From NCBI RefSeq assembly GCF_026241755.1, contig NZ_JAPJDA010000019.1, positions 1 to 64,000 on the forward strand: a DNA stretch of 64,000 bases, written 5' to 3'. Source of the DNA: Salinimicrobium profundisediminis. Its GTDB lineage: Bacteria > Bacteroidota > Bacteroidia > Flavobacteriales > Flavobacteriaceae. The position numbers and the translations under genes were made by a program. The notes beneath the pieces are model-generated. The model saw only the letters and a program-made list of their open reading frames with translations, was not told the DNA's origin and ran no database searches. This document shows, one piece after another, positions 6,794-48,707 of the stretch. Positions within the stretch are counted from its first letter, which is position 1, and every line of letters begins with the position of its first letter.

Positions 6794-7786
6794 ATGAGAA
6801 AATTCACCCTTACCGGTCTTGCAGCTGCAGGCTTTTTAGTTTTTACAGCCTGCGGGCAATCCAAACAAGTGGCTACTGAGACAGCCGCTGTTTCTTTTCA
6901 AAAAGAGAGTGTCAAAAATGCCATTTTAGAAGAGGATATTTCTTCAGCCTTAAAATATCTTTCTTCCGATGAACTTCAGGGAAGATCAACGGGTACAGAT
7001 GGTATAGAGAAAGCTGCTCAATATATAGAGAACGTGTTCAAAGAGCAGGGCGTAAAACCCTTTTTTGACACCTATAGAGATACCTTTGAGGTAAAAGGTT
7101 TGACAGGATATAATCTTGTAGGCCTTGTTGAGGGAACAGACCCTCAGTTAAAAGATCAATACATAATTGTGGGCGCGCATTACGATCATGTGGGACATGC
7201 CAAGCCTTTTGAAGGCGATTCCCTGGCCAATGGTGCCAATGACAATGCTTCGGGAACTACAGCGGTTTTGGAGCTGGCTAAATTCTTTGCTGAAAATCCG
7301 CCGAAAAGGAGCATGCTTTTCAGCCTTTTTTCTGCGGAAGAATTGGGGTTGGTAGGAGCTGCCGAATTAGCAAAAGAATTCAGAGCTGAAGGAATTGACC
7401 TCTACACCATGTTCAATATTGAAATGATTGGGGTGCCAATGAAGGGTAGAGATTACCTGGCGTACCTCACCGGATATGAAAATTCCAATTTAGCCGAAAA
7501 ATTCAATGAATATTCTGAAGCCCAGGTGCTGGGATTTCTGCCTGAAGCCAAGCAGTACAGTCTTTTCCAAAGAAGTGACAATTATCCCTTTTTTAAGGAA
7601 TTCAATGTGCCGGCACAAACCATCTCAACTTTCGACTTTACAAATTTTCCCTATTACCATCATGTAAAAGATGAATTTGAAGAAATGGATGTAGCTCATA
7701 TGGAAAACCTCATTGAAACCATAATTCCGGGAATTGCCGGTATGGCAAATAGCACCCAAAAAGAAATAAAACTTAAGGAGCAATGA
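6794..7786 (+). CDS. M28 family metallopeptidase lipoprotein
   Basis: Predicted cell-envelope aminopeptidase or carboxypeptidase of the M28 family. A lipoprotein signal ends at Cys20 (LVFTAC). Co-catalytic zinc residues are visible: His129 and Asp131 in GAHYDHVG, Asp150 in ANGANDNASG, Glu182-Glu183 in FSAEELGL, and a late His in PYYHHVKDE. The exact substrate cannot be told. A TATCTTTA box (one base off TAnnTTTG) at 6781-6788 ends only five bases before the ATG, implying a leaderless or nearly leaderless mRNA. It overlaps the next gene by four bases (ATGA) and heads a five-gene operon. A copy of the dispersed palindrome lies in codons 40-45. Confidence 0.9.
   Translation: MRKFTLTGLAAAGFLVFTACGQSKQVATETAAVSFQKESVKNAILEEDISSALKYLSSDELQGRSTGTDGIEKAAQYIENVFKEQGVKPFFDTYRDTFEVKGLTGYNLVGLVEGTDPQLKDQYIIVGAHYDHVGHAKPFEGDSLANGANDNASGTTAVLELAKFFAENPPKRSMLFSLFSAEELGLVGAAELAKEFRAEGIDLYTMFNIEMIGVPMKGRDYLAYLTGYENSNLAEKFNEYSEAQVLGFLPEAKQYSLFQRSDNYPFFKEFNVPAQTISTFDFTNFPYYHHVKDEFEEMDVAHMENLIETIIPGIAGMANSTQKEIKLKEQ
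6913..6929. repeat. Dispersed palindrome copy 1 (one mismatch)
   Basis: CAAAAATGCCATTTTAG differs from CAAAAATGNCATTTTTG at one position. It lies in the M28 peptidase gene, encoding KNAIL, with the first C in the third codon position. Confidence 0.7.
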
Positions 7787-8463
7787 AAAAGATTGTGATC
7801 ACCGGTACCAGCCGGGGGATAGGTTTAGAACTTGTAAAGATCCTGGCCCAGGCCGGGCATAAAGTACTTGCATTATCCCGAAATCAGGATGCTGTTAAGA
7901 AACTGGATCTTGAAAATGTGCATTTCTTTGAATTTGATATTACCAGTGAAGAAGACCTTCAGAAAGCTTCAGATTTTGTGAAGGAGCAATGGGGCGGCGT
8001 AGACATCCTGATAAATAATGCAGGTGCCATTATAAATAAACCTTTTGAAGAAATAACCTCCGAAGAGTTTGAAAGCGTGTACAAGGTGAATGTTTTTGGG
8101 GTTGCCGCTCTTACCAGAAAATTGTTGCCTTTAATAAGTAAAGAAGGGCATGTAGTTACCGTGAGCAGTATGGGCGGAGTGCAGGGTAGTATGAAATTTC
8201 CGGGTCTTTCGGCATATAGCTCGAGTAAAGGTGCAGTAATAACACTCACAGAACTCCTTGCTGAAGAATATAAAGAAAGCGGCCCCGCATTTAACGTACT
8301 TGCTTTGGGTGCGGTACAAACGGAAATGCTCCAGGAGGCTTTTCCAGGTTATAAGACACCTCTGCAACCCGCTGAGATGGCCCGGTACATCGCCGATTTC
8401 TCTCTTACCGGGAATAAATTTTACAACGGTAAGTTGTTACAGGTTTCCAGTAGTACACCATAA
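7783..8463 (+). CDS. SDR family oxidoreductase
   Basis: Short-chain dehydrogenase/reductase, NAD(P)-dependent, cytoplasmic. The 226-residue protein has the classical fold markers: TGTSRGIG at residues 7-14 (nucleotide binding), NNAG at 78-81, Ser128/Ser129, and the catalytic Tyr145 and Lys149 (YSSSK). The substrate is not predictable from sequence. Start overlaps the M28 peptidase stop by four bases, which indicates translational coupling. The SprT-like gene follows after five bases. Confidence 0.9.
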   Translation: MKKIVITGTSRGIGLELVKILAQAGHKVLALSRNQDAVKKLDLENVHFFEFDITSEEDLQKASDFVKEQWGGVDILINNAGAIINKPFEEITSEEFESVYKVNVFGVAALTRKLLPLISKEGHVVTVSSMGGVQGSMKFPGLSAYSSSKGAVITLTELLAEEYKESGPAFNVLALGAVQTEMLQEAFPGYKTPLQPAEMARYIADFSLTGNKFYNGKLLQVSSSTP

Positions 8464-8468
8464 CAGGA

Positions 8469-9074
8469 ATGAAGCATATACTTGAGAAATATATCCCTAC
8501 CCATGCTGTTGAACCAGTTTTTGGCTTAATTAAGGCCAATAATATTCACCTTAAAATTGTGAACGAAAGAAAAACCCGACATGGCGATTACCGCAGTTTG
8601 CCGGGAGGGGTTCATCAAATTACGGTGAATGCAAGTCTCAACGAGTATCGATTTCTTATTACGCTGGTTCATGAAATAGCACACCTGGTGGCTTTTGAAC
8701 ATTTTGGAAGGCAAATTAAACCTCATGGGGAGGAGTGGAAAAGGTGTTTCCAGAAGCTTATGCTTCCATTTATAAGACCCGAGATATTCCCGGTGCAGTT
8801 ACTGCCTTTAATTGCCAGGCACTTTAAAAATCCGAAGGCGAGCAGTGATACAGACGCTCATCTTTCGGTTGCCCTAAAACAGTTTGATGCCGAGAATGAC
8901 AAAAACTATATTTTTGAAATTCCGCAGGGAGGGGTTTTTAGAATATACAATGGCAGGATATTTAAAAAAGGCGAACGGCGTGTAAAAAGATATGAATGTG
9001 TAGAAGTGAAAACAGGCAGAATTTACCTGTTCCAGCCCAACGCAGAAGTGGAATTATTAAAAACAGCCAATTGA
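8469..9074 (+). CDS. SprT-like zinc metalloprotease domain protein
   Basis: Small cytoplasmic protein with the SprT/Spartan-type zincin signature: His68-Glu69-x-x-His72 (VHEIAH) and a third ligand His86 in HGEEW. In eukaryotes the family cuts DNA-protein crosslinks; the bacterial role is poorly known. The C-terminal part (about 100 residues) is basic but shows no clear four-cysteine zinc ribbon, unlike E. coli SprT. It is packed between the SDR gene (five bases) and manC (one base), so it is co-transcribed. No regulatory signal is visible. Confidence 0.85.
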   Translation: MKHILEKYIPTHAVEPVFGLIKANNIHLKIVNERKTRHGDYRSLPGGVHQITVNASLNEYRFLITLVHEIAHLVAFEHFGRQIKPHGEEWKRCFQKLMLPFIRPEIFPVQLLPLIARHFKNPKASSDTDAHLSVALKQFDAENDKNYIFEIPQGGVFRIYNGRIFKKGERRVKRYECVEVKTGRIYLFQPNAEVELLKTAN

Positions 9075-9075
9075 T

Positions 9076-14866: not shown

Positions 14867-15715
14867 CTAGAAGATTTTTGACAGCATTTTTTTATACCGG
14901 AGCCTTCTTATGAAGGCTCCTTCTTTTTTATCTACCAAAAATGGCATTTTTGAAGCCTTAGCCCTTCTATAGCCTTCCAGGTAATCTAATGCAAGTGCGG
15001 CATTTCCTTTTTTAAGCGCGAGCTTCACCGAAGCAATCGAAGTAATAACCCAGCCGTAGCGCAGCTTGTAAAAAGCTTCTCCCTGTTTCCATTTTGCGGC
15101 TTTGTTATAGGTGAATCCGGTGGGGCGAAGGTGTTTAACAGCCAGAGAGGCATCGGTTTTGATCTTCCAGCCGTGAAACTGTGCCAGTAATTCATCCACG
15201 GTATCCCAACCCATAGAAGGTTTAAGTCCGCCAATGTCTTTAAAACAGGCTTTTCGGTAAGCCTTTAAAGCTCCCCGAATATGGTCTTTTCCGGTTAAAT
15301 TTTCCAGCTGCCATTTTCCGTCTTTTTCAAGGTGGCAAAACCCTCCTGCCATTCCCACTTTTGGATCTTCCTTAAAATGCCTGCTAATGGTTTCGAGGTA
15401 GTCTTCTGGAAAGATCAAATCGGCATCAAATTTACAGATGACGTCGTAGTTTTGATCCAGCTGGTTTAATCCGTGGTTAAAGGCGTTTACCACCTTGCTT
15501 CCTGGCAAATGTGCTTCGGAAGAAGTGGTGCTCACAAGGGAAATGAAAGGGAATTTATCAGCATAATCTTTCACTACCTGTGCTGTAGCGTCCGAAGATT
15601 GGTCGTCAACCACTACCAGCTTTTTGGGCTGCAGGGTTTGTTCAGAAAGCGACTTCAGGGTTTGCCCTATAAATGCTGCCTCATTATGTGCAGGGATGAC
15701 GATGTAGAATTTCAC
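14867..15715 (-). CDS. Glycosyltransferase family 2
   Basis: Predicted inverting GT-A glycosyltransferase using a nucleotide sugar. The 282-residue protein starts with YIVIPAHNEAAFIGQTL and shows VVVDDQSSDAT (about 34-44), the metal-binding D-x-D as KFDADL near residue 95, and GWDTVDE further on. There is no membrane anchor. Acceptor and sugar are unknown. It is preceded on the same strand by a methyltransferase and a ketoacyl synthase III. The 3' end of the gene contains a plus-strand terminator for pafA and a perfect copy of the dispersed palindrome (encoding SKMPFL). Confidence 0.88.
   Translation of the reverse strand: MKFYIVIPAHNEAAFIGQTLKSLSEQTLQPKKLVVVDDQSSDATAQVVKDYADKFPFISLVSTTSSEAHLPGSKVVNAFNHGLNQLDQNYDVICKFDADLIFPEDYLETISRHFKEDPKVGMAGGFCHLEKDGKWQLENLTGKDHIRGALKAYRKACFKDIGGLKPSMGWDTVDELLAQFHGWKIKTDASLAVKHLRPTGFTYNKAAKWKQGEAFYKLRYGWVITSIASVKLALKKGNAALALDYLEGYRRAKASKMPFLVDKKEGAFIRRLRYKKMLSKIF
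14899..14929 (+). terminator. pafA terminator embedded in the glycosyltransferase gene
   Basis: On the plus strand GGAGCCTTC pairs perfectly with GAAGGCTCC around TTAT, followed by TTCTTTTTT. It lies 33 bases past the pafA stop but inside the last codons of the convergent glycosyltransferase gene, where the minus strand encodes KEGAFIRRL. Confidence 0.8.
14936..14952. repeat. Dispersed palindrome copy 2 (perfect)
   Basis: CAAAAATGGCATTTTTG, with 8-base arms around one central base. It lies within the glycosyltransferase gene, minus-strand coding SKMPFL, with the first C in the second codon position. Confidence 0.9.
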
Positions 15716-15828: not shown

Positions 15829-15845
15829 CAAAAATGGCATTTTTG
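15829..15845. repeat. Dispersed palindrome copy 3 (perfect, longest arms)
   Basis: CAAAAATGGCATTTTTG. Symmetry extends two more bases on each side (GT...AC, 15827-15847), giving 10-base arms. It lies in the 135-base gap between the methyltransferase and glycosyltransferase genes, a few bases beyond the methyltransferase stop. No T tract follows, so it does not look like a terminator. Confidence 0.9.
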
Positions 15846-15850: not shown

Positions 15851-16372
15851 TTATTTTTTCTCGGCATACACTCCGTAGTAGCGGGGCGTGAACTGTCTAA
15901 GCAGCGGCCTTACTCCAATCTTCTTTACAGGGTTTGTCCATTTGTGCCGTTCCTTTATTTCCCAGCCGGCTTTCTCCAGCAGCCAGTCAAACTGCCAGTC
16001 TTCGAACTCATGGTAATGCCGGTCCCATTTATCGGTTTTACTGCGATAGGCGGGAGAGAACCACAGGCTTAACGGGATGGTAGTAACCAGTTTTTTAGCG
16101 CGTATGTCCCTAAGTACATTAAACGGGGCCACAAGATGCTCAAAGATCTCAAAGGCAGTGACAATTTCTGCATTAGAGTTTTTCACACTTGTGGTGTCCA
16201 AATCCAGGTCTTCTCCTGTAGTATTGGTGACCTGGTAGCCCTGTGCTTGCATTAGCTCACTAAACGGATTTCTCACGCCCAGGTCCAGAATACTGGCGGG
16301 AGCAGGAGCAACATGGGTCAAGAATTCAAGGGTTTCTTTATATCGCTTGTTCGGGAAACTCTTTTCGTACAT
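15851..16372 (-). CDS. Class I SAM-dependent methyltransferase
   Basis: Small (173 residues) Rossmann-fold methyltransferase. SILDLGVRNP at about 28-37 is the SAM-binding motif I region, AEIVTAFEIFEHL (about 68-80) the acidic motif II region, and LVTTIPLSLW the post-motif strand. The substrate is unknown; a C-terminal WDRHYHEFEDWQFDWLLEKA helix pair is typical of ubiE/type-11-like sugar or lipid methyltransferases. The ATG directly follows the KAS III stop (no gap), so the two are co-transcribed. Confidence 0.82.
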   Translation of the reverse strand: MYEKSFPNKRYKETLEFLTHVAPAPASILDLGVRNPFSELMQAQGYQVTNTTGEDLDLDTTSVKNSNAEIVTAFEIFEHLVAPFNVLRDIRAKKLVTTIPLSLWFSPAYRSKTDKWDRHYHEFEDWQFDWLLEKAGWEIKERHKWTNPVKKIGVRPLLRQFTPRYYGVYAEKK

Positions 16373-20620: not shown

Positions 20621-21433
20621 GTGAAAAAAATATTTGATTTCTATATTAATAGCAGTATTCACGTGGCTTTAGCGGTGGTTTCGCTTTGCCTTGTAACTGT
20701 GCTGCATTTTGGAGGGCAAATTGACCCTGGCCTGCTGGTTTTTATCTTTTTTGCAGTGGTAACAGGATACAATTTTGTGAAGTATGCCGCAGTAGCCGGC
20801 CTGCATCACCGAACACTCACCCGCGGACTCAAAAACATTCAGATATTTTCTCTTTTTTGCTTTACCGGGTTGCTCATTTCTTCTTTTTTTATTGATTTCA
20901 AAATCCTGCTGCTAAGTGCCTTTTTTGGATCCCTAACTGCGCTTTATGCCCTGCCTGTCTTCAGCAAAAGAAGAAATTTGAGAAGCATCTCGGGCATTAA
21001 GATATTCATTATTGGTATTGTGTGGGCCGGGGTGACCGTAGTGCTTCCCGGAATAGGTGTCAAAAATGCCATTTTTGGAGACCTGTTTCTCGAAATGTTT
21101 CAGCGGTTTTTGTTGGTGCTGGTCTGGATCCTGCCGTTCGAGATAAGGGACTTAAAGTACGACCTGGAGCAGTTGGGAACCCTTCCGCAGCGAATAGGGG
21201 TTACCAGGACTAAAATCGTGGGCCTGCTGCTACTGGGGGTGGTAATTGTGACAGAACTTTTAAAAACTTCAGGGTCACAGGCCTCTTTTAATGCTTTGGT
21301 TGTAATGTGTCTTCTAACTGCCTTTTTTGTAATGGCCAGTAAAGAACACCGAAGCCGCTACTTTACCGCTTTTTGGGTGGAAGCAATTCCCATCTTATGG
21401 CTGGTGATTCTTTTAATGTTAAAAGTCTTTTGA
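20621..21433 (+). CDS. UbiA-like integral membrane protein, function unknown
   Basis: A 270-residue membrane protein with about eight hydrophobic segments, reminiscent of the UbiA prenyltransferase superfamily in hydropathy and in the small polar loops (for example GYNFVKYAAVAGLHHR and FEIRDLKYDLEQLGTLPQRI). The second contains a DxxxD-like acidic motif in the place of UbiA motif II. The first acidic motif NDxxD is not recognisable, so activity is doubtful. The frame starts with GTG at 20621, followed by KKIFDFYINSS. Its 3' end overlaps the convergent zinc-finger gene by 15 bases. A perfect dispersed palindrome lies inside (encoding KNAIF). Confidence 0.7.
   Translation: MKKIFDFYINSSIHVALAVVSLCLVTVLHFGGQIDPGLLVFIFFAVVTGYNFVKYAAVAGLHHRTLTRGLKNIQIFSLFCFTGLLISSFFIDFKILLLSAFFGSLTALYALPVFSKRRNLRSISGIKIFIIGIVWAGVTVVLPGIGVKNAIFGDLFLEMFQRFLLVLVWILPFEIRDLKYDLEQLGTLPQRIGVTRTKIVGLLLLGVVIVTELLKTSGSQASFNALVVMCLLTAFFVMASKEHRSRYFTAFWVEAIPILWLVILLMLKVF
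21061..21077. repeat. Dispersed palindrome copy 4 (perfect)
   Basis: CAAAAATGCCATTTTTG within the UbiA-like gene, encoding KNAIF with the first C in the third codon position. The base before is T (GTC codon), the same left flank GTGT as copy 3. Confidence 0.9.
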
Positions 21434-22324: not shown

Positions 22325-24358
22325 TTATTTCTTCGGAAGCAGTCCTGCTCTGCGCAACAAGGCTTCGGGAGCAGCCTCTTTTCCCCTGAAGCGTTTGTAC
22401 AAGGTCAACGGGTGCTCGGTGCCTCCCTGAGAAAGTACGGTTTCCCTGAATTTATTGGCGGTTTCCCTGTCAAAAATGCCATTTTCAGTAAAGAATTCAA
22501 AAGCATCGGCGTCCAGTACTTCTGCCCATTTATAGGAATAGTAACCGGCAGCATAGCCTCCCTGGAAGATATGTGAAAACGAAGTGCTCATGCAGTTCTC
22601 TTTCACTTCAGGATAAAGCTGTGTAGTCTCAAAGGCTTTTTCTTCATGGGCTTTAACATCATCAATGCCTGAAGGATCTTTGCTGTGCCAGCTCATGTCA
22701 AGAATTCCAAAACTAAGCTGTCTTAAAGTGGCCATGCCTTCATGGAAGGTAGCCGAATCTTTGATCTTTTGAATAAGATCATCGGGGATCACTTCGCCGG
22801 TCTCGTAATGGGTGGCGAAAAGTTTCAACGCATCTTTCTCATAGCACCAGTTTTCGAGTACCTGGCTTGGAAGTTCGACAAAATCCCAGAAAACGTTAGT
22901 GCCCGAAATACTTGGATAAATTGTATCGGCCAACATGCCGTGAAGGGCGTGACCAAATTCATGGAAGAGGGTAGTAACCTCGTTGAACGTGAGCAGAGAT
23001 GGCTCTTCATCTGTAGGTTTTGTGAAATTGCAGACTATAGAAATATGTGGGCGCTCATTTTTACCTTTTTGGCGATATTGAGATTTGTAAGATGTCATCC
23101 ATGCGCCACCACGCTTGCCTTCCCGCGGATGGAAATCGGCGTAAAAAAGGGCAATTTCCTTACCTTCTTCGTCAGTAACGAGGTAGGTTTGCACCTCAGG
23201 ATGATAGGTTTCTGCCTCAAAGACCTGTTGGAAATTGAGACCATAAAGTTTTTCGGCTACGATAAAGACACCTTTGATGACGTTGTTGAGCTCAAAATAA
23301 GGCTTGAGCTGTTCATCGTCGAGGTCAAAAAGTTTTTGCTTCAGTTTTTCTGAATAATAGGCCGCATCCCATTTTTCGAGTCGGTCGATCTGGTCAAGGT
23401 CCTGCGCAAAACTCTCAAGTTCATGAAATTCCTTTTCGGCTGCCGGTTTGGCTTTTTCCAAAAGTTCTTCCATGAAGGAATTTACTTTTTCTGGAGTTTC
23501 GGCCATGCGTTCTTCCAGTTTGAAATGCGCATAGGTTGGATAACCCAAAAGATTCGCCTTTTTATGCCGCAGTTTTACAATTTGCAGCACATTCTCCCTA
23601 TTGTCAAGCTCGTCTCCGTGAAAACCCTTAGCTCCAAAAGCAATGGCAAGTTCTTTGCGCAGCGCTCTGCTTTTGGCATATTTCATAAACGGGATGTAGC
23701 TGGGGTAATGAAGGTTAAAGATCCATCCTTCTTTATTCTTTTCTTTTGCCAGCATCTTCGCTGCGGTACGGGCACCTTTGGGCAGGCCTTCAAGATCTTC
23801 TTCGCGGGTGATATGGAGTTCGTACCTGTTAGTTTCGGCCAGCACGTTTTCTCCAAAGTTGAGGCTTAAAGAAGCCAGTTTTTTATCCAGTTCTCGTAGC
23901 TCCTGCTTTTGCCCGGCATCAAGGTTCGCACCGTTGCGTTTAAACATCTTGTACTTCTTGTCCAGCAAGGTGCTTTGTTCAATGCTGAGGTTGAGGCTGT
24001 CTTTGTTTTCATAAACCGCTTTTACCTTTTGAAAAAGTACCGGATCCTGGATAATGTCATTTTTGAAGTCGGTTAATACCGGGGATATTTCCTGGGCCAG
24101 TTTCTGAATTTCTTCATTGGTCTCGGCTGAGTTAATATTGAAGAAGATGCTGGTAATTCTGTCAAGTTGTTCTCCTGCAAACTCAAGGGCTTCTACGGTG
24201 TTTTCAAAAGTAGGGGCTGCACTTGAAGCAGTGATTTGCTCAATATCCTGTTGCGCCCGCCTGATAGCTTCTTCTATGGCCGGTTTGTAGTGCCCGGTTT
24301 TTATTTTCATAAAAGGAGCGGTATCGAATTTTTCCAGGAGTGGATTTCTTTCTGTCAT
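22325..24358 (-). CDS. M3 family oligopeptidase (Dcp-like)
   Basis: Zinc oligopeptidase of the thimet/peptidyl-dipeptidase family, 677 residues. The active site HEFGHALH sits near residue 465 (TLFHEFGHALHGM). Other family signatures are LLTFNEV before it and GGYAAGYYSYKWAEVLDADAF (about 605-625) with the substrate-binding tyrosines. The N-terminus (MTERNPLLEKFDTAPF) has no signal peptide, so it acts in the cytoplasm on short peptides. It stands as a single transcription unit with about 90 bases on one side and 200 on the other. A two-mismatch copy of the dispersed palindrome lies near the 3' end. Confidence 0.93.
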   Translation of the reverse strand: MTERNPLLEKFDTAPFMKIKTGHYKPAIEEAIRRAQQDIEQITASSAAPTFENTVEALEFAGEQLDRITSIFFNINSAETNEEIQKLAQEISPVLTDFKNDIIQDPVLFQKVKAVYENKDSLNLSIEQSTLLDKKYKMFKRNGANLDAGQKQELRELDKKLASLSLNFGENVLAETNRYELHITREEDLEGLPKGARTAAKMLAKEKNKEGWIFNLHYPSYIPFMKYAKSRALRKELAIAFGAKGFHGDELDNRENVLQIVKLRHKKANLLGYPTYAHFKLEERMAETPEKVNSFMEELLEKAKPAAEKEFHELESFAQDLDQIDRLEKWDAAYYSEKLKQKLFDLDDEQLKPYFELNNVIKGVFIVAEKLYGLNFQQVFEAETYHPEVQTYLVTDEEGKEIALFYADFHPREGKRGGAWMTSYKSQYRQKGKNERPHISIVCNFTKPTDEEPSLLTFNEVTTLFHEFGHALHGMLADTIYPSISGTNVFWDFVELPSQVLENWCYEKDALKLFATHYETGEVIPDDLIQKIKDSATFHEGMATLRQLSFGILDMSWHSKDPSGIDDVKAHEEKAFETTQLYPEVKENCMSTSFSHIFQGGYAAGYYSYKWAEVLDADAFEFFTENGIFDRETANKFRETVLSQGGTEHPLTLYKRFRGKEAAPEALLRRAGLLPKK
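22471..22487. repeat. Dispersed palindrome copy 5 (two mismatches)
   Basis: CAAAAATGCCATTTTCA. The left arm is perfect and the last two bases of the right arm differ. It lies in the M3 peptidase gene, where the minus strand encodes ENGIF. Confidence 0.55.
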
Positions 24359-24540
24359 ATAGCTTGAATAATTGACTTAATAGAATGCGTTTTAACGAAA
24401 TTTTTTGGAAAAGTTCGGAAAATTCTAAAATTATTCTTTACTTCACATTTCCCAAATTACTAAAGTCAGTAGCTTTTAGGTTTTTGATTAATATATTTAG
24501 AATGGTTAATAAATACTATTAAAACAACGAATGCTACTTT

Positions 24541-25061: not shown

Positions 25062-25094
25062 AGACCTCACAGGTTTCAAAAACCTGTGAGGTCT
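25062..25094. repeat. 15-bp perfect inverted repeat between purK and purE
   Basis: AGACCTCACAGGTTT and AAACCTGTGAGGTCT form a perfect 15-base stem around a 3-base loop (CAA). There is no T tract on the purK-purE strand; on the plus strand GTTTTGTT follows. It is probably a REP-like intergenic palindrome, possibly also a partial terminator or processing hairpin between the two pur genes. Confidence 0.9.
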
Positions 25095-25100: not shown

Positions 25101-26258
25101 TTATTCGCTAATTACTCTAATTTTATTTTTGACCTCTTCAGCAATTTGTCTAGCTTTAGAAAGATCGGCATTTACTATGGTAACATGACCCATTTTTCTG
25201 AAAGGGCGGGTAATTTTTTTTCCGTAGATATGAGGGGTGACCCCTTTTAGTTTCATGATTTCGGAGATGTTCTCGTAAACCACATTTCCCGAAAAACCTT
25301 CTTCGCCTACCAGGTTCACCATTACGCCGCCGGCCTTACTTTCGGTATCTCCCAAAGGAAGATCTAGAATGGCTCTCAAATGCTGCTCAAACTGGTTGGT
25401 GAATGCTGCTTCTATGCTGTAGTGGCCGCTGTTGTGAGGCCGGGGCGCAACTTCGTTAACCAGGATCCCGTCTTCTTCTGTCTGGAACATTTCAACCGCC
25501 AGTAAACCAATGTGTTCATAGGCCCTTGAAACTTTTTCGGCAACTTTTCTCGCTTTTTCGGCTACCGCGGCATCAATCCGGGCCGGGCAAATCACGTATT
25601 CTACCTGGTTGGCTTCGGGATGAAATTCCATCTCAACCACAGGGTAGGTCTTTACCTCTCCCGATGGGTTGCGAGCCACAATTACTGCAAGTTCGTTCTT
25701 AAAAGGGATGAGATCTTCAGCAATACAGGCAGTTTCGGGTAAATCTTCGGCTGTTTGGAGGTTCTTGACCACTGCAACACCTTTACCGTCGTAACCTCCC
25801 GTTGTACTTTTCCACACAAGAGGCAGGGAAATTTCCCCTTTTTGAAGACCTTCCAAAAATGCCATTTTTGAGGAGTATTTCTGGTAAAGGGCAGTAGGGA
25901 CTTCGTGGCTGGTAAAGAAATCTTTTTGTACGCCTTTGTCCTGAATCTTCTTCAAGGTTTTGGATGAAGGATAGACTTCTATTCCTTCAGACTCTAATTT
26001 TTCAAGAGCTTCTACATTGACTGCTTCAATCTCAAAGGTGAGCACATCTGCTTTTCTTCCGAAGTTCACTACAGTGTCAAAATCCATGAGATCGCCGCGG
26101 GTAAATTCATCACAGGCAATCCTGCAGGGCGCTTCGGCATTAGGATCGAGTACAATGGTGCGAATGTCAAACTTTCGGGTTTCGTAAAGGAGCATTTTTC
26201 CAAGCTGGCCTCCACCGAGTATTCCGAGGGTGAAATCTGAAGAAAAATAATTGATCAT
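25101..26258 (-). CDS. purK: 5-(carboxyamino)imidazole ribonucleotide synthase PurK
   Basis: ATP-grasp enzyme that makes N5-CAIR from AIR, bicarbonate and ATP. The 385-residue protein has the N-terminal LGILGGGQLGKML (12-24), the ATP-grasp core WKSTTGGYDGKGVAVV (about 148-163), FKNELAVIVARN, and ATP/metal residues in NEVAPRPHNSGHYSIEA (about 265-281). It heads the purK-purE pair. A perfect copy of the dispersed palindrome is inside the gene (encoding SKMAFL). The start MINYFSSDF is the first Met of the frame. Confidence 0.95.
   Translation of the reverse strand: MINYFSSDFTLGILGGGQLGKMLLYETRKFDIRTIVLDPNAEAPCRIACDEFTRGDLMDFDTVVNFGRKADVLTFEIEAVNVEALEKLESEGIEVYPSSKTLKKIQDKGVQKDFFTSHEVPTALYQKYSSKMAFLEGLQKGEISLPLVWKSTTGGYDGKGVAVVKNLQTAEDLPETACIAEDLIPFKNELAVIVARNPSGEVKTYPVVEMEFHPEANQVEYVICPARIDAAVAEKARKVAEKVSRAYEHIGLLAVEMFQTEEDGILVNEVAPRPHNSGHYSIEAAFTNQFEQHLRAILDLPLGDTESKAGGVMVNLVGEEGFSGNVVYENISEIMKLKGVTPHIYGKKITRPFRKMGHVTIVNADLSKARQIAEEVKNKIRVISE
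25854..25870. repeat. Dispersed palindrome copy 6 (perfect)
   Basis: CAAAAATGCCATTTTTG within purK. The minus strand encodes SKMAFL, with the first C in the second codon position, as in copies 2 and 8. Confidence 0.9.
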
Positions 26259-36992: not shown

Positions 36993-38348
36993 ATGCGGCT
37001 ACATTTTATAGCAATTGGGGGAAGTGCCATGCATAACCTTGCCCTTGCTCTTCACGAAAAAGGATATAAAATCACAGGTAGTGATGATGTCATTTATGAA
37101 CCTTCCAAAACCCGATTAAACAACAAAGGCCTGCTGCCAAAGCAATTTGGGTGGTTTCCCGAAAAAATCACCAAAGACCTCGATGCTGTTATCCTCGGAA
37201 TGCATGCCCGGGAAGATAATCCCGAATTGGCAAGAGCAAAAGAACTGGAACTTCCTATATACTCTTATCCCGAATTTTTATTCGAACAATCTAAAGAAAA
37301 GACAAGAGTGGTTATTGGCGGTTCTCATGGTAAAACTACAATAACCTCAATGATTCTACATGTGATGAACTACCATCACAAGAATGTGGATTTTATGGTA
37401 GGTGCTCAATTGGAAGGATTTGAGAATATGGTCCACTTAACCCAGGAAAATGATTTTATAGTGCTTGAGGGTGATGAGTATTTATCCTCTCCTATAGACA
37501 GGCGTCCAAAGTTTCATCTTTATAAACCTAACATCGCTTTCCTTAGCGGAATTGCCTGGGATCATATCAACGTATTTCCAACTTTTGATGAGTATCTGGA
37601 GCAATTCAAAATCTTCATAGATTCTATAGTTAAAGGAGGTATCCTGGTATATAATGAGGAGGATCAACACCTGAAGCAACTGGTGGAAGAATCTACGAAC
37701 ACCATTAGAAAGCATTCTTACAGAACGCCAGATTATCACGTGGAGAACGAAAATACACTTTTGCATACGCCCGAAGGTGATATGCCTGTTGCCGTTTTTG
37801 GTGAACACAACCTTCAAAATTTAGCAGGTGCAAAATGGATTTGTCAACACATGGGTATAGACGAAGAAGACTTTTATGAAGCTATTGCTTCTTTTAAAGG
37901 CGCTTCAAAAAGGTTGGAAAAGATAGTAGAAACCAAAAACACTGTCGTATTTAAAGATTTTGCACATAGTCCTTCAAAGGTGATGGCAACTACTAAAGCT
38001 GTGAAGGAACAGTATCCGGACAGAAAGGTGGTTGCATGTCTTGAACTTCACACCTACAGCAGTCTAAATGCCAATTTTCTTAAACAGTACGAATCTTCTC
38101 TGAATGCAGCCGATGAAGCTGTGGTTTTCTTTTCCCCCGAAGCGGTAGAAAATAAGAAGTTGGAGCCCATTTCTAAAGAACAAATTTTTGAAGCTTTTTC
38201 CCGAACAGATCTAACGGTTTACACTAATGCACTGGAGTTTAAAAATTACTTGCAAGAACAGCAGTATGATCATAAAGTGCTTTTGTTAATGAGTAGTGGT
38301 AATTACGGAGGTTTAAATTTTGATGAGATCAAGAACTGGGTATCCTAA
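36993..38348 (+). CDS. mpl: UDP-N-acetylmuramate:L-Ala-gamma-D-Glu-meso-DAP ligase Mpl
   Basis: Murein recycling ligase that reattaches the tripeptide to UDP-MurNAc in the cytoplasm. The 451-residue protein has the Mur-ligase N-terminus HFIAIGGSAMHNLALAL (4-20) and the P-loop GGSHGKTT near 109-116. The central domain follows with EGDEYLSSP and GIAWDHINVFP, then FAHSPSKVMAT and LELHTYSSLN in the C-terminal domain. I chose ATG 36993; the open frame extends 20 codons further upstream from a TTG at 36933. The stop codon is part of a one-mismatch copy of the dispersed palindrome. Confidence 0.92.
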   Translation: MRLHFIAIGGSAMHNLALALHEKGYKITGSDDVIYEPSKTRLNNKGLLPKQFGWFPEKITKDLDAVILGMHAREDNPELARAKELELPIYSYPEFLFEQSKEKTRVVIGGSHGKTTITSMILHVMNYHHKNVDFMVGAQLEGFENMVHLTQENDFIVLEGDEYLSSPIDRRPKFHLYKPNIAFLSGIAWDHINVFPTFDEYLEQFKIFIDSIVKGGILVYNEEDQHLKQLVEESTNTIRKHSYRTPDYHVENENTLLHTPEGDMPVAVFGEHNLQNLAGAKWICQHMGIDEEDFYEAIASFKGASKRLEKIVETKNTVVFKDFAHSPSKVMATTKAVKEQYPDRKVVACLELHTYSSLNANFLKQYESSLNAADEAVVFFSPEAVENKKLEPISKEQIFEAFSRTDLTVYTNALEFKNYLQEQQYDHKVLLLMSSGNYGGLNFDEIKNWVS

Positions 38349-38361
38349 AATGGCATTTTTG
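38345..38361. repeat. Dispersed palindrome copy 7 (one mismatch)
   Basis: CTAAAATGGCATTTTTG differs from the consensus at the second base only. It includes the mpl stop codon (TAA at 38346-38348) and extends into the 52-base gap before radC. Confidence 0.7.
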
Positions 38362-41112: not shown

Positions 41113-41661
41113 ATGAAGATGTCCTGGAGAAATTGCTTTTCAAAAATGGCCTTTTTGGCACTCCTCACAGTCTGTACTTCCTGTGTTAAGGATGTTGATC
41201 TTGACCAGACTGATGAGATTGTGCTCTCACCCGAAGCCGCCGTCGATCTTATTTTCTTTGATCTTGTTGATGAAGAATTCAACGTTGTCTCTAGCAGCGG
41301 GGTAACAGCAAAAGACGAAACCAGGCTCGATTTTCTAGATGATGACTACATACAAAATGACCTGGTGCGGGCCGATTTCAACTTCAGGTTCACCAACACC
41401 TTTGAGAGTCACTTAACTGCAATTATAAGATTTCTTTCCCCTGCAAACGGGGTGCAGCATACTGTCCTGGTTTCAATTCCCCGTGGAAGTATAGAAACAC
41501 CGTCAGTAGTAGATTACACCGAAATTATTAATGAAGCCCAGATAAATAGAATAAGAAGAAGTATAAAAGTGTCTGTTGAAGTAACAAGACATGACCCGTC
41601 GGCGGTTGCAGGATCTTTGCAGCTCGCTTCAAAAGGGTTTTTCTACTTTGAATTCAAATAA
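41113..41661 (+). CDS. Predicted lipoprotein of unknown family
   Basis: I do not recognise a family. The 182-residue product has a lipoprotein-type signal with Cys21 or Cys24 as the lipidated residue (LLTVCTSC), then an acidic, beta-rich body (LDFLDDDYIQNDLVRADFNF, then FRFTNTFESHLTAIIRF). The stop and the next ATG share one base (TAATG). With the following beta-barrel-like protein and a third secreted protein it forms an envelope operon, so it may be an outer membrane lipoprotein partner. A one-mismatch palindrome copy encodes SKMAFL inside the signal peptide. Confidence 0.75.
   Translation: MKMSWRNCFSKMAFLALLTVCTSCVKDVDLDQTDEIVLSPEAAVDLIFFDLVDEEFNVVSSSGVTAKDETRLDFLDDDYIQNDLVRADFNFRFTNTFESHLTAIIRFLSPANGVQHTVLVSIPRGSIETPSVVDYTEIINEAQINRIRRSIKVSVEVTRHDPSAVAGSLQLASKGFFYFEFK
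41141..41157. repeat. Dispersed palindrome copy 8 (one mismatch)
   Basis: CAAAAATGGCCTTTTTG differs from the consensus only at the first A of the right arm. It lies in the signal-peptide codons (SKMAFL) of the lipoprotein gene. Confidence 0.65.
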
Positions 41662-43052
41662 TGAGAGTATTTTTCTTCCTCTTCATATTAACGCTTTCTC
41701 AGGGAATATTGGCCCAAAACAAACAGCTGCTGTACAATTTTGACGATTTGCCTCAAACCCTTTTACTAAATCCGGGAGCCGAAACCAATTTTGATATGCA
41801 TCTTGGCCTTCCGCTTTTGTCACAGATCCATCTGTCTGCAGGGTCTTCAGGCGTGAATATGTATGACATTTTCAGGGAGGATGGAGGTTCCATTAATGAC
41901 AGAATTAGAAAAACGTTGCACAAGCTTTCCAAAAATGATTTTTTTACAGTCAACCAGCAACTTGAGATCTTTTCTATTGGTTGGCGTGACCAGCGAAGAA
42001 GGTATTATACAGCCGGGATTTACCAGGAATTTGATGCCTTTGTGTACTTTCCCAAAGATCCTGCGGTGCTGGCTTATGAAGGGAATAAAAATTACATCGG
42101 GCGAAATTTCGATTTTTCGGATGCTGCTTTCACTGCCGAGGTGCTCAACGTTTTTCACCTGGGTTTTACCAATTATTATTCTGAAGATTTAAACTACGGT
42201 TTCCGCGGAAAAATTTATTCCGGAATTTTTAATGCCCACAGTGTAGATAATACCGGCATTTTTAGAACCGAACTTTCCCCTGAAGGCCCCAACCTTTACC
42301 GGCATTATATGTCGCAGGTCGATATCTTGATAAACACAGCCGGGTGGGACGAACTTACAGATTCTGATGCTACCAACAGGCAACTTATGGCAAGCTTCTT
42401 AAAAAAGGCATTTTTGGGAGGTAATATTGGGTTGGGCCTCGATGCCGGCTTCACCTGGTATCCTTCAGATCAATACAGGGTAACCGCGAGCCTGCTGGAT
42501 ATTGGCTTTATGCGACAAACTAAAAATGTAGAAAATTACAGGTATTACGGAGATTACCAAACCGATGGGATTGAGCTGCTTTTTCCGGGTACGCGTGAGT
42601 ATTGGGACGAGTGGGAAGACAATCTGGATAAAAACCTGAAAGATGAAACCTTGACCAATTCTTACACCACATGGCGACCTGTAAAGTTCAATGCCTCGGT
42701 AGATTTCGGGTTTTCTGAAAATGCCGAACCCTGTAACTGCTACAGGCCAATGGGCAGGAGAAGATATTTTAACCATCTTGGAGCCCAGTTTTTCGCTGTA
42801 AAACGGCCCCGGGGGCTCAACTTTGCCACCACCCTTTACTACGATAAAACCTTTAATAATAACTTTAGAGGAAAAATTACTTATACAGCCGATTCCTATT
42901 CGTTTTCAAATATCGGGCTCCTGTTTTCTGCCAGACTTTCCAATTTTAATGTTTATCTTGCTGCAGATAATCTTCTGGATTATACCAATCTCGCCAAGGC
43001 GCAGAATGCTTCGGTGCAGCTTGGGGTCCAACTAATGTTTAGCAGGGAATGA
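41661..43052 (+). CDS. DUF5723-like outer membrane beta-barrel protein
   Basis: A 463-residue protein with a signal peptide ending SQGILAQ. The mature body is rich in alternating aromatic and polar residues and ends in amphipathic strands (ASVQLGVQLMF), typical of outer membrane barrels. DQRRRYYTAGIYQEFDAFVY and the bipartite layout fit the DUF5723 family of Bacteroidota, whose function is unknown. It is translationally coupled on both sides: TAATG with the lipoprotein upstream and a four-base overlap with the gene downstream. Confidence 0.75.
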   Translation: MRVFFFLFILTLSQGILAQNKQLLYNFDDLPQTLLLNPGAETNFDMHLGLPLLSQIHLSAGSSGVNMYDIFREDGGSINDRIRKTLHKLSKNDFFTVNQQLEIFSIGWRDQRRRYYTAGIYQEFDAFVYFPKDPAVLAYEGNKNYIGRNFDFSDAAFTAEVLNVFHLGFTNYYSEDLNYGFRGKIYSGIFNAHSVDNTGIFRTELSPEGPNLYRHYMSQVDILINTAGWDELTDSDATNRQLMASFLKKAFLGGNIGLGLDAGFTWYPSDQYRVTASLLDIGFMRQTKNVENYRYYGDYQTDGIELLFPGTREYWDEWEDNLDKNLKDETLTNSYTTWRPVKFNASVDFGFSENAEPCNCYRPMGRRRYFNHLGAQFFAVKRPRGLNFATTLYYDKTFNNNFRGKITYTADSYSFSNIGLLFSARLSNFNVYLAADNLLDYTNLAKAQNASVQLGVQLMFSRE

Positions 43053-45237: not shown

Positions 45238-45341
45238 GAGGTAAAAATAGTAAATTGAGTACTCTTGCAGAAAATGCAGGCGGTATAAGTTTTCTTAGTG
45301 ACGAACTGGCAGCATGAGGTTCTTTTCAAAAAAATGTGTGT

Positions 45342-45358
45342 TAAAAATGTCATTTTTG
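45342..45358. repeat. Dispersed palindrome copy 9 (one mismatch)
   Basis: TAAAAATGTCATTTTTG, with T instead of C at the first base; the inner 15 bases are symmetric. It lies between rarA and the rhomboid gene, about 54 bases before the rhomboid ATG. This copy has T in the centre. Confidence 0.7.
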
Positions 45359-45411
45359 AAAGGTATTTGAACAGCAGTTTTAATTGGTTAACTTTTTGCA
45401 AAGCCAAAGGT

Positions 45412-46161
45412 ATGAGAGTACAAAAATCAGCAAATTCTGAACCATTTGTTTTCACTACGGGGGTGGTGGGCTATCCCCTGATCTTTGTACTGGCTATTTG
45501 GATAGTATTTTGGATGGAAATACGCTTTGGGTGGGACTTCACGAGCTTTGGAATTTACCCGCGAACCCTTGAGGGGCTTAGAGGTATAATTTTTTCCCCT
45601 TTTATACACAGTGGGATAAAGCATTTGTTTCACAATACGGTTCCGCTGTTCGTTCTTACGCTTTCCCTCTTTTACTTTTACCGGAAATTAAGCTGGAAAA
45701 TCCTCTTTTTTGGGCTCCTGCTGTCGGGGTTCCTTACATGGCTTATTGGGAGGCCCGCTTTTCATATAGGGGCTTCAGGAATGATCTATGTGCTGGCGGG
45801 ATTTTTATTCTTTAAAGGTATTTTCTCGAGATACTTCAGACTGGTAGCTCTTTCCCTGATCGTGGTTTTTCTTTACGGCGGACTTTTATGGTACATCACA
45901 CCAATTGATCCTAAAATTTCGTGGGAAGGTCACCTGGCGGGGCTTCTTTCAGGATTGATCTTTGCACTCATTTACAGGCAGAATGTTGCCCGTGCCCCAA
46001 AATATGAATGGGAAAAAGAAACTTATAGGGAAGAAGAAGACCCTTTTATGCGGCATTTTGACGAAAACGGGAACTTCATTGAAAACCCCGATGGAGAGGA
46101 CGAGCCGCTATATGTTTACCATTATAAACGAGAGGAAAAGGACAGGCCAAAGGAAGAGTAA
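45412..46161 (+). CDS. Rhomboid family intramembrane serine protease
   Basis: Six-helix inner-membrane protease that cuts within or next to transmembrane segments. The 249-residue protein has catalytic Ser122 in HIGASGMIY and His174 in WEGHLAGLLSG, plus HSGIKHLFHNTVPL in the second conserved segment (about 66-79). A charged cytoplasmic tail (about 188-249, many Glu and Lys) ends the protein. I start at ATG 45412 (MRVQKSANSE) because the upstream extension from 45298 is not rhomboid-like and carries a palindrome copy. Substrates are unknown. Confidence 0.88.
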   Translation: MRVQKSANSEPFVFTTGVVGYPLIFVLAIWIVFWMEIRFGWDFTSFGIYPRTLEGLRGIIFSPFIHSGIKHLFHNTVPLFVLTLSLFYFYRKLSWKILFFGLLLSGFLTWLIGRPAFHIGASGMIYVLAGFLFFKGIFSRYFRLVALSLIVVFLYGGLLWYITPIDPKISWEGHLAGLLSGLIFALIYRQNVARAPKYEWEKETYREEEDPFMRHFDENGNFIENPDGEDEPLYVYHYKREEKDRPKEE

Positions 46162-46168: not shown

Positions 46169-46906
46169 CTAATCCAGTCTCTGTCGCATCACTTCATAAA
46201 GAAAAGCACCACAGGCTACAGAAACATTTAAGCTGCCAATACTGCCCTGCATGGGGAGTTTGGCTTTGTCGTCAACCAGCTTGAGCACAGATTCAGAAAT
46301 TCCTTTGCCTTCATTTCCCATTACCATTGCCGTGGGCTCTTTAAAATCTACGGAATAAAGCAGCTTGTCGGTCTTTTCTGTGGCTGCTACCACTTTAATG
46401 CCCGAGCCCTGCATGTAGAAAATGGCATCTTTGATATGATCTACCTTGATAAGCGGAATTTTAAAGATCGCCCCGGCAGAAGTCTTCACCGTATCGGCAG
46501 TTACGGGAGCGCCCCCTTTTTTCTGAATGATAATTGCGTTTACACCACAACATTCGGCAGTTCTAATGATCGCACCAAAATTCCGAACATCATCTACCTG
46601 ATCAAGTAAAAGAAAGAGCGGGGCGGTTTCCTGTTGAAGCGCCTTTTCAACTTCAGAAGCAAGATCGGCAAATTGAACGGGCGAGATCTTTGCCACAACA
46701 CCCTGGTGATTTCCTTTTACCAGTCGGTTCAACTTTTCTACAGGGACGTAAGAAATGTTGTATTCGCCAGATTTAGTTTTTTGCTGTAATTCCTGAAATA
46801 ACTGGCCGCTAAGACCTTTTTGAACAAAGATCTTGTCTATGGTCTCATTATTCTGAATGGCTTCAATTACGGCACGTATTCCAAAAATGGTGGTTGTATC
46901 TTTCAT
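46169..46906 (-). CDS. rlmB: 23S rRNA (guanosine(2251)-2'-O)-methyltransferase RlmB
   Basis: SPOUT (TrmH-type) RNA 2'-O-methyltransferase. The 245-residue protein has an N-terminal RNA-binding substrate domain (IFGIRAVIEAIQ near 7-18), then motif 1 DVRNFGAIIRTAECCG (about 103-118), motif 2 MVMGNEGKGIS and motif 3 LNVSVACGAFLYEV. It could in principle be a TrmH paralogue acting on tRNA, but the N-terminal domain fits RlmB. Convergent with the rhomboid gene, seven bases apart. Confidence 0.9.
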   Translation of the reverse strand: MKDTTTIFGIRAVIEAIQNNETIDKIFVQKGLSGQLFQELQQKTKSGEYNISYVPVEKLNRLVKGNHQGVVAKISPVQFADLASEVEKALQQETAPLFLLLDQVDDVRNFGAIIRTAECCGVNAIIIQKKGGAPVTADTVKTSAGAIFKIPLIKVDHIKDAIFYMQGSGIKVVAATEKTDKLLYSVDFKEPTAMVMGNEGKGISESVLKLVDDKAKLPMQGSIGSLNVSVACGAFLYEVMRQRLD

Positions 46907-46958
46907 GGTGCAAAGATAGAGATAAATGAATGGCTGCCGAAAACTCTTGAAAATTACT

Positions 46959-48707
46959 TTATTCTTCAGCCTGCACTGTAAAAGTTCTTTTTACAGACAC
47001 AGGTTTTCCTGAATTTGTGAACCCTTCAAGATGAATTTCAAAAGTTCCGGGAACATCAGAAGTGAAGAAATCCATATTTTCTTCGGAAGAATCTATTTCT
47101 ACTGAAGGCACCCACAGAAGTTGTGTTCTTAGATCTGGAATCCTTGACAGTGGATTATCTGAAGAAGTGGCATAAGACTGTTTAAAATAGTTCTTGCCGG
47201 CTTCAGGAAGTTTCATTGCTACTCTTTTAATGTAATCCTGGTTTAAAGTTTCAGAAAAATTTCCCTCGATCGTTTCAACATCAACAATTCCGGCGAAAAT
47301 ATGAGAGCCTAAAAAGAAGTTATCCCTCAAAATCTTTATGCTCTTCACGTATTTTGCCGGGTAGTTGATCAAGAGGTCGTGATCTTGTACCATAGCGCCG
47401 TCTACGATAAGCAGCGCCGGAAGATAAAAATTCGTTGCGCCGTCTGTCTGGTTTATCACGAATTGAGAGCCGTCTTTGCTCCTGGCCAGGTGGGCAAACA
47501 TGACAATTTCAACCATTGTTTCTTTTATAGTGGGAAACCGGGTGTAGTCATCCAGATTGTAGACGGTAGGCTCTTGAGTGTAAAAAGGTTCTTTTTCAGT
47601 TATAACTTTTAAAGTGTCGGGTTTAACGCTGTAATATGCATTTTCAATCTGAACCTGTACGCTGCGGTCAAGAATATAATCTTTCATGGCAGGGGTAATC
47701 TTAAAATCGGCGAACTTCAAATCAGGATTGGAGATTTGAGGTAAAGGATCAAGTTTGATCTCATAATTTTCGGTTTCATCTCCTAAAATTTGCATTAAAG
47801 CTTCGGGGGTGTCGTAGGCTTCATCTAAATTGAGATAGAATTTCCCCTGCTTGTTTGTAGTTGCGATCTTGAGCATGTAATCTTCACCCGGAAGGGAGAA
47901 AGCCAGTTTCTTTCCTGATAAATTGCGGGCTGCTTCTGGCGTTTTTGCCACAATTCGGCCGGAGATGAGATTGCCTCTTGCTTCAGGAAGAAAGACGGAA
48001 TCTATTTTTTGACGTGTAGCAGGAAAAGAAAGGTCAAAATTTTCAGAAGTAAATTTCTTCGGAATAGAAATACTATCTGTTTTTCTAACGGAAAGCGAAT
48101 AATCTCCCGGAACCCCTTCTAGATCTACTGCAACTTTCTCTCTCCTGCCAAAAATGTCATTTTCCAGAATGATTTTTACAGGGCTATTTTCACTCTTAAC
48201 TGAATTTTTTCCTGAGTCAGGATTTGGAGATATGGACGGGATTTCTTCAGAAGTTGATAAAATGGCCGAAGAATCGCCGCGATATGGATTAACTATGGCC
48301 ACATCACCTGCGAAATAAGTGTCGTGATTCCTCATCCAGTTGGAATAGCTCAATAATTTGTAATTTCCGGATGGTACCGTGGTAGGAATAAAGAAATCTC
48401 CCTGCGCCTGTCCGTTTTTCAGCAGGAGTTTGTGCTTGAAAATGCTATTTCCATCTTCACTTATTAATTCTACATAAGCGACTTTGCTCACTCCGCTGAA
48501 TTCCTCCGTATCCTTTTCAAGATTGTAGAGCTTATAATACAGGTATTCCCCCGGAAAAAGCAAGGAGGAATTGTAGTGGACAAAAATCTTTTCCTGCGGA
48601 ACTTTTTCGAGCAGTGCTGCACCGGCTGAACTATCTACTGCCTGTGCAAAAAAATGCAGCGGGAGTAAGAAACAGGTAAGTGTGAAAAAAAGGTATTTCA
48701 TATTCAT
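46959..48707 (-). CDS. Secreted protein with a TonB-plug-like C-terminal region
   Basis: A 583-residue secreted protein with a signal peptide (MKYLFFTLTCFLLPLHFFAQ). Its N-terminal part is macroglobulin/MG2-like (EKIFVHYNSSLLFPGEYLYY at about 37-56 and VPSGNYKLLSYSNWMRN). The C-terminal part has PALLIVDGAMVQDHD and a VKSIKILRDN...IFAGIVDVET stretch, the pattern of a TonB receptor plug domain without the barrel. The ATG at 48707 follows the DUF4249 stop by one base. It belongs with the DUF4249 lipoprotein and TonB receptor upstream; this grouping is common in Bacteroidota but its substrate is unknown. A two-mismatch palindrome copy encodes ENDIF. Confidence 0.75.
   Translation of the reverse strand: MNMKYLFFTLTCFLLPLHFFAQAVDSSAGAALLEKVPQEKIFVHYNSSLLFPGEYLYYKLYNLEKDTEEFSGVSKVAYVELISEDGNSIFKHKLLLKNGQAQGDFFIPTTVPSGNYKLLSYSNWMRNHDTYFAGDVAIVNPYRGDSSAILSTSEEIPSISPNPDSGKNSVKSENSPVKIILENDIFGRREKVAVDLEGVPGDYSLSVRKTDSISIPKKFTSENFDLSFPATRQKIDSVFLPEARGNLISGRIVAKTPEAARNLSGKKLAFSLPGEDYMLKIATTNKQGKFYLNLDEAYDTPEALMQILGDETENYEIKLDPLPQISNPDLKFADFKITPAMKDYILDRSVQVQIENAYYSVKPDTLKVITEKEPFYTQEPTVYNLDDYTRFPTIKETMVEIVMFAHLARSKDGSQFVINQTDGATNFYLPALLIVDGAMVQDHDLLINYPAKYVKSIKILRDNFFLGSHIFAGIVDVETIEGNFSETLNQDYIKRVAMKLPEAGKNYFKQSYATSSDNPLSRIPDLRTQLLWVPSVEIDSSEENMDFFTSDVPGTFEIHLEGFTNSGKPVSVKRTFTVQAEE
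48149..48165. repeat. Dispersed palindrome copy 10 (two mismatches)
   Basis: CAAAAATGTCATTTTCC has a perfect left arm; the last two bases of the right arm differ, as in copy 5. It lies in the plug-like gene (minus strand ENDIF). Confidence 0.55.

Follow-up and report, generated by a model that had tools for sequence, protein, structure and literature searches.

A dispersed palindrome limited to Salinimicrobium as a candidate uptake signal of natural transformation

The genome of Salinimicrobium profundisediminis (Flavobacteriaceae) is interspersed with a 17-letter palindrome, CAAAAATGNCATTTTTG, which is strongly over-represented, limited to one genus and near-absent elsewhere in the family. 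We describe it here starting from a stretch of 64,000 nucleotides, referred to as the window in the following, which is contig C12 (NZ_JAPJDA010000019.1, positions 1 to 64,000) of a 4,036,307-bp genome in 101 contigs (G000). The palindrome forms the core of an extended motif, has preferred locations within and between genes, differs between species by substitution, and its abundance across the genus coincides with an operon that resembles a gene pair essential for transformation in Riemerella. On the strength of these sequence comparisons, we tentatively propose, with somewhat less than even confidence, that it is an uptake signal of natural transformation in Salinimicrobium, as in Neisseria and Haemophilus.

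In this role, the palindrome may be a password for recognizing DNA of the own kind during uptake. With a candidate signal and an operon that is present alongside it and lost where site counts are at background, the recognition of own DNA in Bacteroidota would become directly testable. Uptake signals have been described in Neisseriaceae and Pasteurellaceae; should the proposal hold, the same trait would be run by a different surface machine. Should the palindrome be a chromosomal binding site instead, the genus would possess an abundant, hitherto undescribed sequence-specific chromosome protein. Under either reading, something must bind a motif that is present in about 700 copies. The literature that we searched, mostly as titles and the beginnings of abstracts, held no description of the motif, of a palindromic uptake signal or of one from Bacteroidota, and named no binder for the palindrome.

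Abundance, genus limit and extended motif

Genome-wide, 192 perfect copies of CAAAAATGNCATTTTTG stand against none of a reversed-pattern control, and 698 copies with up to two mismatches against nine. A preliminary description of the window had held the palindrome to be more frequent than chance and had proposed such a count as a check; the counts bear it out, lying far from expectation rather than near it. The window itself contains four perfect copies and 11 with up to two mismatches; its matches with 0, 1, 2 and 3 mismatches number 4, 4, 3 and 7, a total of 18, whereas 100 dinucleotide shuffles give 1.73 on average and 6 at most.

The limits of this distribution were traced in a survey of 397 genomes of the family, including that of the window, four of which belong to the same genus and 393 to other genera. 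The four carry 192 (own genome), 140, 55 (G393) and 6 (G007) perfect copies, with 361 copies at up to two mismatches in G393 and 112 in G007. Among the other genera, 11 genomes have one perfect copy and 382 have none, and the number of copies with up to two mismatches per genome varies between 0 and 38 (control, 0 to 28). Among named genomes, a scan returned at least 101 stretches; 45 of the matches listed are from Salinimicrobium and the others are scattered over many organisms. Viral contigs gave 21 matches, with one copy in each. A search for comparably strong words in other genera, which covered 10-mers, gapped palindromes and gapped 5+5 words in 80-kb samples of G299, G097, G341, G154 and G143, found none, at low power; stretches of N made the G393 row unusable in one of the runs.

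Within the genus, 12 genomes were counted on both strands. Perfect G-centred copies and, after the stroke, R-centred copies with up to two mismatches (where a site may count twice, and controls give 2 to 12) are as follows: G000 131/1114, G241 104/1048, G401 40/474, G393 31/532, G404 30/553, G402 29/553, G399 26/584, G398 21/451, G400 15/438, G007 1/154, G397 1/52 and G403 0/2, the last from a genome that is only 74% complete. As a separate observation, the M3 peptidase of G403 is only 70% identical to that encoded in the window, about as distant as those of some other genera of the family.

The excess is graded. In 3 Mb, an order-3 Markov model yields no copy with fewer than two mismatches, and stretches of the own genome exceed its expectation 25-fold at two mismatches, 6.4-fold at three, 1.8-fold at four, 1.24-fold at five and 1.03-fold at six. 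In stretches spread round the complete relative G241, the corresponding factors are 32, 6.1, 1.8, 1.2 and 1.06. A similar mismatch gradient has been described for uptake sequences, and also for other constrained words (PMC1939737).

A profile of the motif was drawn from 456 kb of the own genome, in stretches partly picked for known sites and therefore non-random, in which the mismatch classes 0, 1, 2 and 3 hold 55, 27, 31 and 57 matches. Conservation extends about 12 bases past each end of the core, and the palindrome is thus the core of a near-palindrome of about 41 bp with phased A-tracts at -12 to -8 and 1 to 5, in coding and intergenic copies alike. Outwards from the core, position -1 is a pyrimidine and -2 any base but A; -3 is usually T, -4 and -5 are usually C or G, -6 is a purine, and the segment from -8 to -12 is A-rich. 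The flank frequently reads AGGT or ACCT. This preference is the same in intergenic and coding copies, if weaker in the latter, which places the constraint on DNA and not on protein, as had been suggested from the window; that the core survives within diverging flanks (see below) agrees with this. A clear GG or CC stands on both sides in 31 of 103 sites, as GG/GG in nine, as CC/CC in nine and mixed in 13. In a hairpin, the two arms would have to match; the outer flank therefore seems to be a matter of DNA recognition or bendability. A further palindromic element about 20 bp out was also considered and was not upheld by a wider profile.

Copies in the window, their change and their placement

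By a simple call of open reading frames (ORFs), the 11 window copies with up to two mismatches comprise nine inside ORFs, which occupy two reading phases as previously noted, an intergenic copy (15829) and a copy across a stop codon (38345). All coordinates in the preliminary description proved correct, as did the two mismatches assigned to the copies at 22471 and 48149; the copy at 42400, which it had called weaker, also has two. The copies are:

14936..14952, perfect, in the 3' part of gene 14867-15715 (-), which we take to be glycosyltransferase-like
15829..15845, perfect, intergenic, 5 nt past the stop codon of gene 15851-16372 (-)
21061..21077, perfect, coding, in 20621-21433 (+); orthologous places were compared in nine genomes
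25854..25870, perfect, in gene 25101-26258 (-), presumably purK-like
6913..6929, one mismatch, in gene 6794-7786 (+), presumably peptidase-like
38345..38361, one mismatch, across the stop codon of a gene ending at 38348
41141..41157, one mismatch, close to the 5' end of gene 41113-41661 (+)
45342..45358, one mismatch, at the 5' end of ORF 45298-46161
22471..22487, two mismatches, in gene 22325-24358 (-), which we assume to encode an M3-type peptidase
42400..42416, two mismatches, in gene 41661-43052 (+)
48149..48165, two mismatches, in gene 46959-48746 (-)
24049..24065, three mismatches, weak and possibly due to chance
46417..46433, three mismatches, weak and possibly due to chance

Ten relatives were compared over the orthologous region, where the core has often persisted or been regained as the flanks changed. 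At 21061, one relative has a perfect core with a different centre base between different flanks; at 45342, where the window has one mismatch, two relatives are perfect; and at other orthologous places, the core is lost in some relatives. Sites were compared from six source genomes, three of them with perfect sites in the region, and the 10 sites include several that are mutually orthologous and thus few that are independent. With this proviso, 48 of 62 pairwise comparisons keep the site at up to two mismatches, 12 have three or more and two have a gap. Control 17-mers keep 14 of 16 positions in 5072 of 12755 cases, and the flanks of the sites are more divergent than the control stretches. DNA uptake sequences (DUS) are likewise conserved within divergent flanks (PMC2397512). 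Because orthologous places differ by substitution, insertion is not the mode by which the copies originated.

This bears on the idea, raised early on, that the copies are a tiny mobile palindrome, akin to repetitive extragenic palindromic (REP) elements moved by a Y1 transposase (RAYT). Hundreds of palindromic, often intergenic copies would suit such an element, and a search for the Y1 transposase family (PF01797) gave matches in nine of the 12 genus genomes, G397 and G403, the two with background counts, being among the three without. The third, however, is G393, which has its 55 perfect copies and 361 with up to two mismatches without a Y1 match, whereas G007 has four Y1 matches and just six perfect copies. 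Together with the location of copies inside genes and the change by substitution, with gaps in only two of the 62 comparisons, this leads us to reject REP elements moved by RAYT and to regard mobility of this kind as very improbable.

For the placement of copies, gene calls from a simple hexamer model were used for 1.076 Mb of sequence from G000 and G241, comprising 957 kb of coding sequence, 17.7 kb of convergent, 60.9 kb of tandem and 26.5 kb of divergent gaps. The 85 perfect copies divide into 21 coding, 27 in convergent, 32 in tandem and four in divergent gaps and one unassigned, that is, about 0.02 per kb of coding sequence, 1.5 of convergent, 0.5 of tandem and 0.15 of divergent gaps. In the G241 part alone, which was not chosen for sites, the coding, convergent, tandem and divergent numbers are 10, 9, 9 and 2. 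Copies are thus commoner, and more perfect, between convergent genes and behind stop codons. Of 33 sites in tandem gaps 200 nt or longer, 10 are found no more than 50 nt from the stop codon, where 5.0 +/- 2.0 would be expected. Coding copies sit in tolerant reading frames: of 108 with up to two mismatches, 68 are in phase 2, 31 in phase 1 and nine in phase 0, a phase that would bring in Cys, Trp or stop codons.

The preference for gene ends recalls transcription terminators, and the copies could in principle be terminators that share a favoured stem sequence. Of 94 intergenic copies with up to one mismatch, 19 reach a folding energy of -16 kcal/mol or lower, including 14 of the 35 copies in convergent gaps, so that a minority may double as terminators. 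The earlier statement that none of the copies seems to be a terminator holds for most, in which a strong hairpin cannot form. Nevertheless, the outer arms look independent (18 of the same type and 13 mixed in 31 sites), which means that most stems cannot extend; a T-run of at least four follows only 50 of the 94; and coding copies share the flank preference despite their weak folding, with a mean of -6.3 for 61 copies with up to one mismatch against -10.0 for intergenic copies. As a general explanation, the intrinsic terminator was rejected, a GC-rich hairpin with a T-run occurring in a minority only, and we consider it distinctly improbable that terminators account for the motif.

The same placement also suits the main rival of our proposal, a genus-specific cytoplasmic DNA-binding protein, either nucleoid-associated or acting as a roadblock, which would bind every few kb, bend about 41 bp and be excluded from promoters; where genes end, it might in addition block transcription from running on into a neighbour. 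A homodimer would go well with the perfect symmetry, and the long footprint with A-tracts, found in coding copies too, the crowding of convergent gaps as opposed to divergent ones (27 in 17.7 kb and four in 26.5 kb) and the proximity to stop codons in tandem gaps are all in keeping with such a binder. However, no candidate protein was found, genus-specific DNA-binding genes not having been enumerated genome-wide, and a binder alone leaves the coincidence with an uptake-like operon unexplained. We regard it as a serious possibility, somewhat less probable than an uptake signal.

The chromosomal map is relevant to such a protein. The sites of Noc, SlmA and MatP and the parS sites are dispersed palindromes for chromosome proteins that are biased towards or away from the replication origin or terminus. 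The genome of G241 is a single contig of 3.51 Mb. We take the two points at which its GC skew switches sign, near 1.65 Mb and near 3.3 Mb, as origin and terminus, the origin being placed by skew only; 100 of the 104 G/C-centred perfect sites of G241 were listed. Bins of 250 kb contain two to 13 sites, with a thin part at 0-0.75 Mb on one side of the terminus. The origin half holds 63 of the 100 listed sites (p 0.012, or 0.039 if the four unlisted ones all fall in the terminus half), a point in favour of the binder. Copies with up to two mismatches show no such lean, with 63 in 340 kb near the origin and 58 in 280 kb near the terminus across 31 stretches. Compared with the proteins named above, the lean is thus weak and inconsistent, and a segregation role tied to origin and terminus, one of the candidates first put forward, finds no consistent support. 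Strand polarity like that of FtsK orienting polar sequences (KOPS) or Chi was rejected, the motif being a palindrome whose centre base shows no polarity either: of 100 listed sites, 55 have G on the leading strand (p 0.37). An uptake signal would be expected to be rare in recently acquired DNA. Stretches of G241 below 41.5% GC are threefold thinner in sites, with nine in 120 kb (six stretches) against 101 in 440 kb (22 others; p 2.8e-4, with a cut set after seeing the data), but the rank correlation is 0.31 (p 0.11).

The receptor-like/DUF5689 operon and possible DNA uptake

In Riemerella anatipestifer, the adjacent genes RS04915, for an outer-membrane protein with a carboxypeptidase-regulatory domain, and RS04920, for a protein with DUF5689 and choice-of-anchor-J domains, are each essential for transformation (PMC8459023). 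Salinimicrobium has a similar pair, which is the strongest link of the palindrome to uptake: in the own genome, a DUF5689 gene lies downstream of a gene whose 932-aa product contains a carboxypeptidase-regulatory domain (PF13715, PF13620), and a DUF5689 gene was found in 10 of the 12 genus genomes and is missing from G397 and G403, both of which have background site counts. As in Riemerella, the regulatory-domain protein is encoded upstream on the same strand (PMC8459023); the likeness is judged by domains and gene order rather than by protein alignment, and no uptake signal is established for the Riemerella pair. We take the 932-aa protein, by its length, domain and remote likeness, for a receptor-like protein of the outer membrane. 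Beside the pair (L263:11375-14902) are nuclease-like genes with Exo_endo_phos_3 and Endonuclease_1 domains, the first of them divergent, and these could encode the nuclease that the Riemerella model postulates without naming it (PMC8459023). In nine further genomes, the DUF5689 gene, the receptor-like gene and the first nuclease gene all have orthologs, at 57-90% identity.

In G397, the genes that flank this locus are 760 bp apart, compared with about 5.4 kb elsewhere, and enclose a scar (L299:5386-5811, C5): 49 C-terminal residues are left of the DUF5689 gene and 77 of the nuclease gene, with 48 bp between these remnants. Remnant gene ends at the syntenic place mean that the operon was lost by deletion. 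In G403, the visible part of the locus is likewise without the operon, in a genome that is 74% complete. Receptor-like proteins near the locus in both genomes are distant paralogs with 24-26% identity. A single-protein tree has G403 as the first branch of the genus and G397 as the next, with a support of 87/77 for the second step, and unites the ten operon-bearing species in one group with a support of 100/99.

If the palindrome is an uptake signal, a surface complex of the receptor-like protein and its DUF5689/choice-of-anchor-J partner would bind DNA that carries the symmetric site of about 41 bp, the phased A-tracts could ease a bend at the outer-membrane pore, the nucleases encoded alongside may process the DNA, and ComEC, DprA and RecA would complete transformation. 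Fragments with good sites would be taken up and recombined more often than others, and sites would therefore accumulate by molecular drive, filling places where they are tolerated, such as tolerant reading frames, the sequence after stop codons and the gaps between convergent genes. With the loss of the surface genes, the drive would stop. Most of the facts agree with the proposal, in particular the graded excess, the location in permissive places and the loss of the operon. The more specific reading, an uptake signal of Bacteroidota's own, in which a symmetric, bendable site is recognized by an outer-membrane receptor-like protein and a DUF5689 partner in place of a pilin and was spread by drive until some lineages lost the surface genes, is one that we advance with somewhat more doubt.

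The Salinimicrobium site resembles the DUS of Neisseriaceae in being a clade-limited short word with many copies, in genes and in gaps, that is conserved in permissive flanks; DUS are also absent from recently acquired genes and often form inverted pairs in terminators (PMC2397512). Unlike DUS, which occur once per 1.1-1.5 kb, it is palindromic, longer and present at about one copy per 6 kb in a host from Bacteroidota, and its proposed receptor is not the pilin ComP. With the uptake signal sequence (USS) of Pasteurellaceae, it shares a core with AT-rich flanks at helical spacing (PMC12616744); the USS is asymmetric and AT-rich on one side, whereas this site is alike on both.

Several points weigh against an uptake signal. 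The competence of Salinimicrobium, the recognition of the site, the recognizing protein and the drive are all matters that we infer. Since G397 and G403 are the deepest branches, the association of operon and sites rests on one or two events and not on twelve, and since the Y1 transposase family, which was tested for another reason, is missing from the same two genomes, the absence of a family there is not rare. A second dispersed word, described below, is enriched in the operon-less G397, which implies that such a word can persist without the operon. Conversely, G007 has the full operon and few sites, and the gene pair is reported to be widespread in Flavobacteriaceae (PMC8459023), whose other genera have only background numbers of the palindrome and, in the small samples searched, no substitute for it. 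Apart from its N-terminal regulatory domain, the receptor-like protein gave no match to a barrel or TonB-receptor family. The DUF5689 protein scores 192.8 bits against the NCBIfam family M949_1556, below the cut-off of 475, and the Riemerella gene M949_1556 is cited for lipopolysaccharide synthesis (PMC6142336). Finally, known uptake sequences are, according to PMC1939737, not palindromes and mostly not biased downstream of genes, whereas CAAAAATGNCATTTTTG is palindromic and biased to gene ends.

Natural transformation does occur in the family, to which Riemerella belongs: besides R. anatipestifer with its essential gene pair, R. columbina prefers its own DNA, for which no signal is established (PMC7965970). 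A search of solved structures with an alignment of nine of the ten DUF5689 proteins gave no match at E values up to 1.

A second dispersed word and other repeats

Another word, TTTCTNCGGAA(G), is found in genes on both strands, on the plus strand of the window for instance at 7329, 14722, 22328, 47078 and 48054. As a 13-mer with up to one mismatch, TTTCTNCGGAA occurs at 143 per Mb in G000, 161 in G007 and 61 in G397, against 13, 6 and 0 for the reversed control, and shows no replichore strand bias. It clusters near the palindrome: 12 of 153 copies lie within 60 bp, with 3.0 expected, and 25 within 100 bp, with 4.8 expected.

This clustering would suit some other maintenance process, linked for example to methylation or repair as proposed for HIP1 of cyanobacteria. 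The palindrome is far longer than the sites of usual methyltransferases, and we consider such a process unlikely. HIP1 is likewise a dispersed, highly iterated and lineage-limited palindrome; it differs in having 8 bp, in its tie to methyltransferases (PMC4390886) and in being far more numerous, with 5648 copies of a 10-bp form in Synechocystis (PMC1939737).

The palindrome also occurs within other repeats. In a contig of the own genome (L117:19250-19860, C16), a tandem repeat of about 155 bp has one copy in each unit, and similar local duplications are seen in two further stretches (L118 and L120). Two contigs of G007 (C8 and C15; L158 and L159) contain an apparent integron cassette array, with small orphan ORFs between repeats that resemble attC by eye; in many of these repeats, the two arms enclose a near-copy of the palindrome, and the contigs carry about one near-copy per kb; outside these contigs, G007 has about 33 sites per Mb (180 kb). 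In the window, a near-perfect hairpin of 33 bp with a REP-like look (AGACCTCACAGGTTT..AAACCTGTGAGGTCT, 25062-25094) matches many places in genus genomes, including G397. A short piece at 24478-24517 also matches many places in genus genomes, and among the own-genome stretches, at the cut-off used, it was matched by the window copy only.

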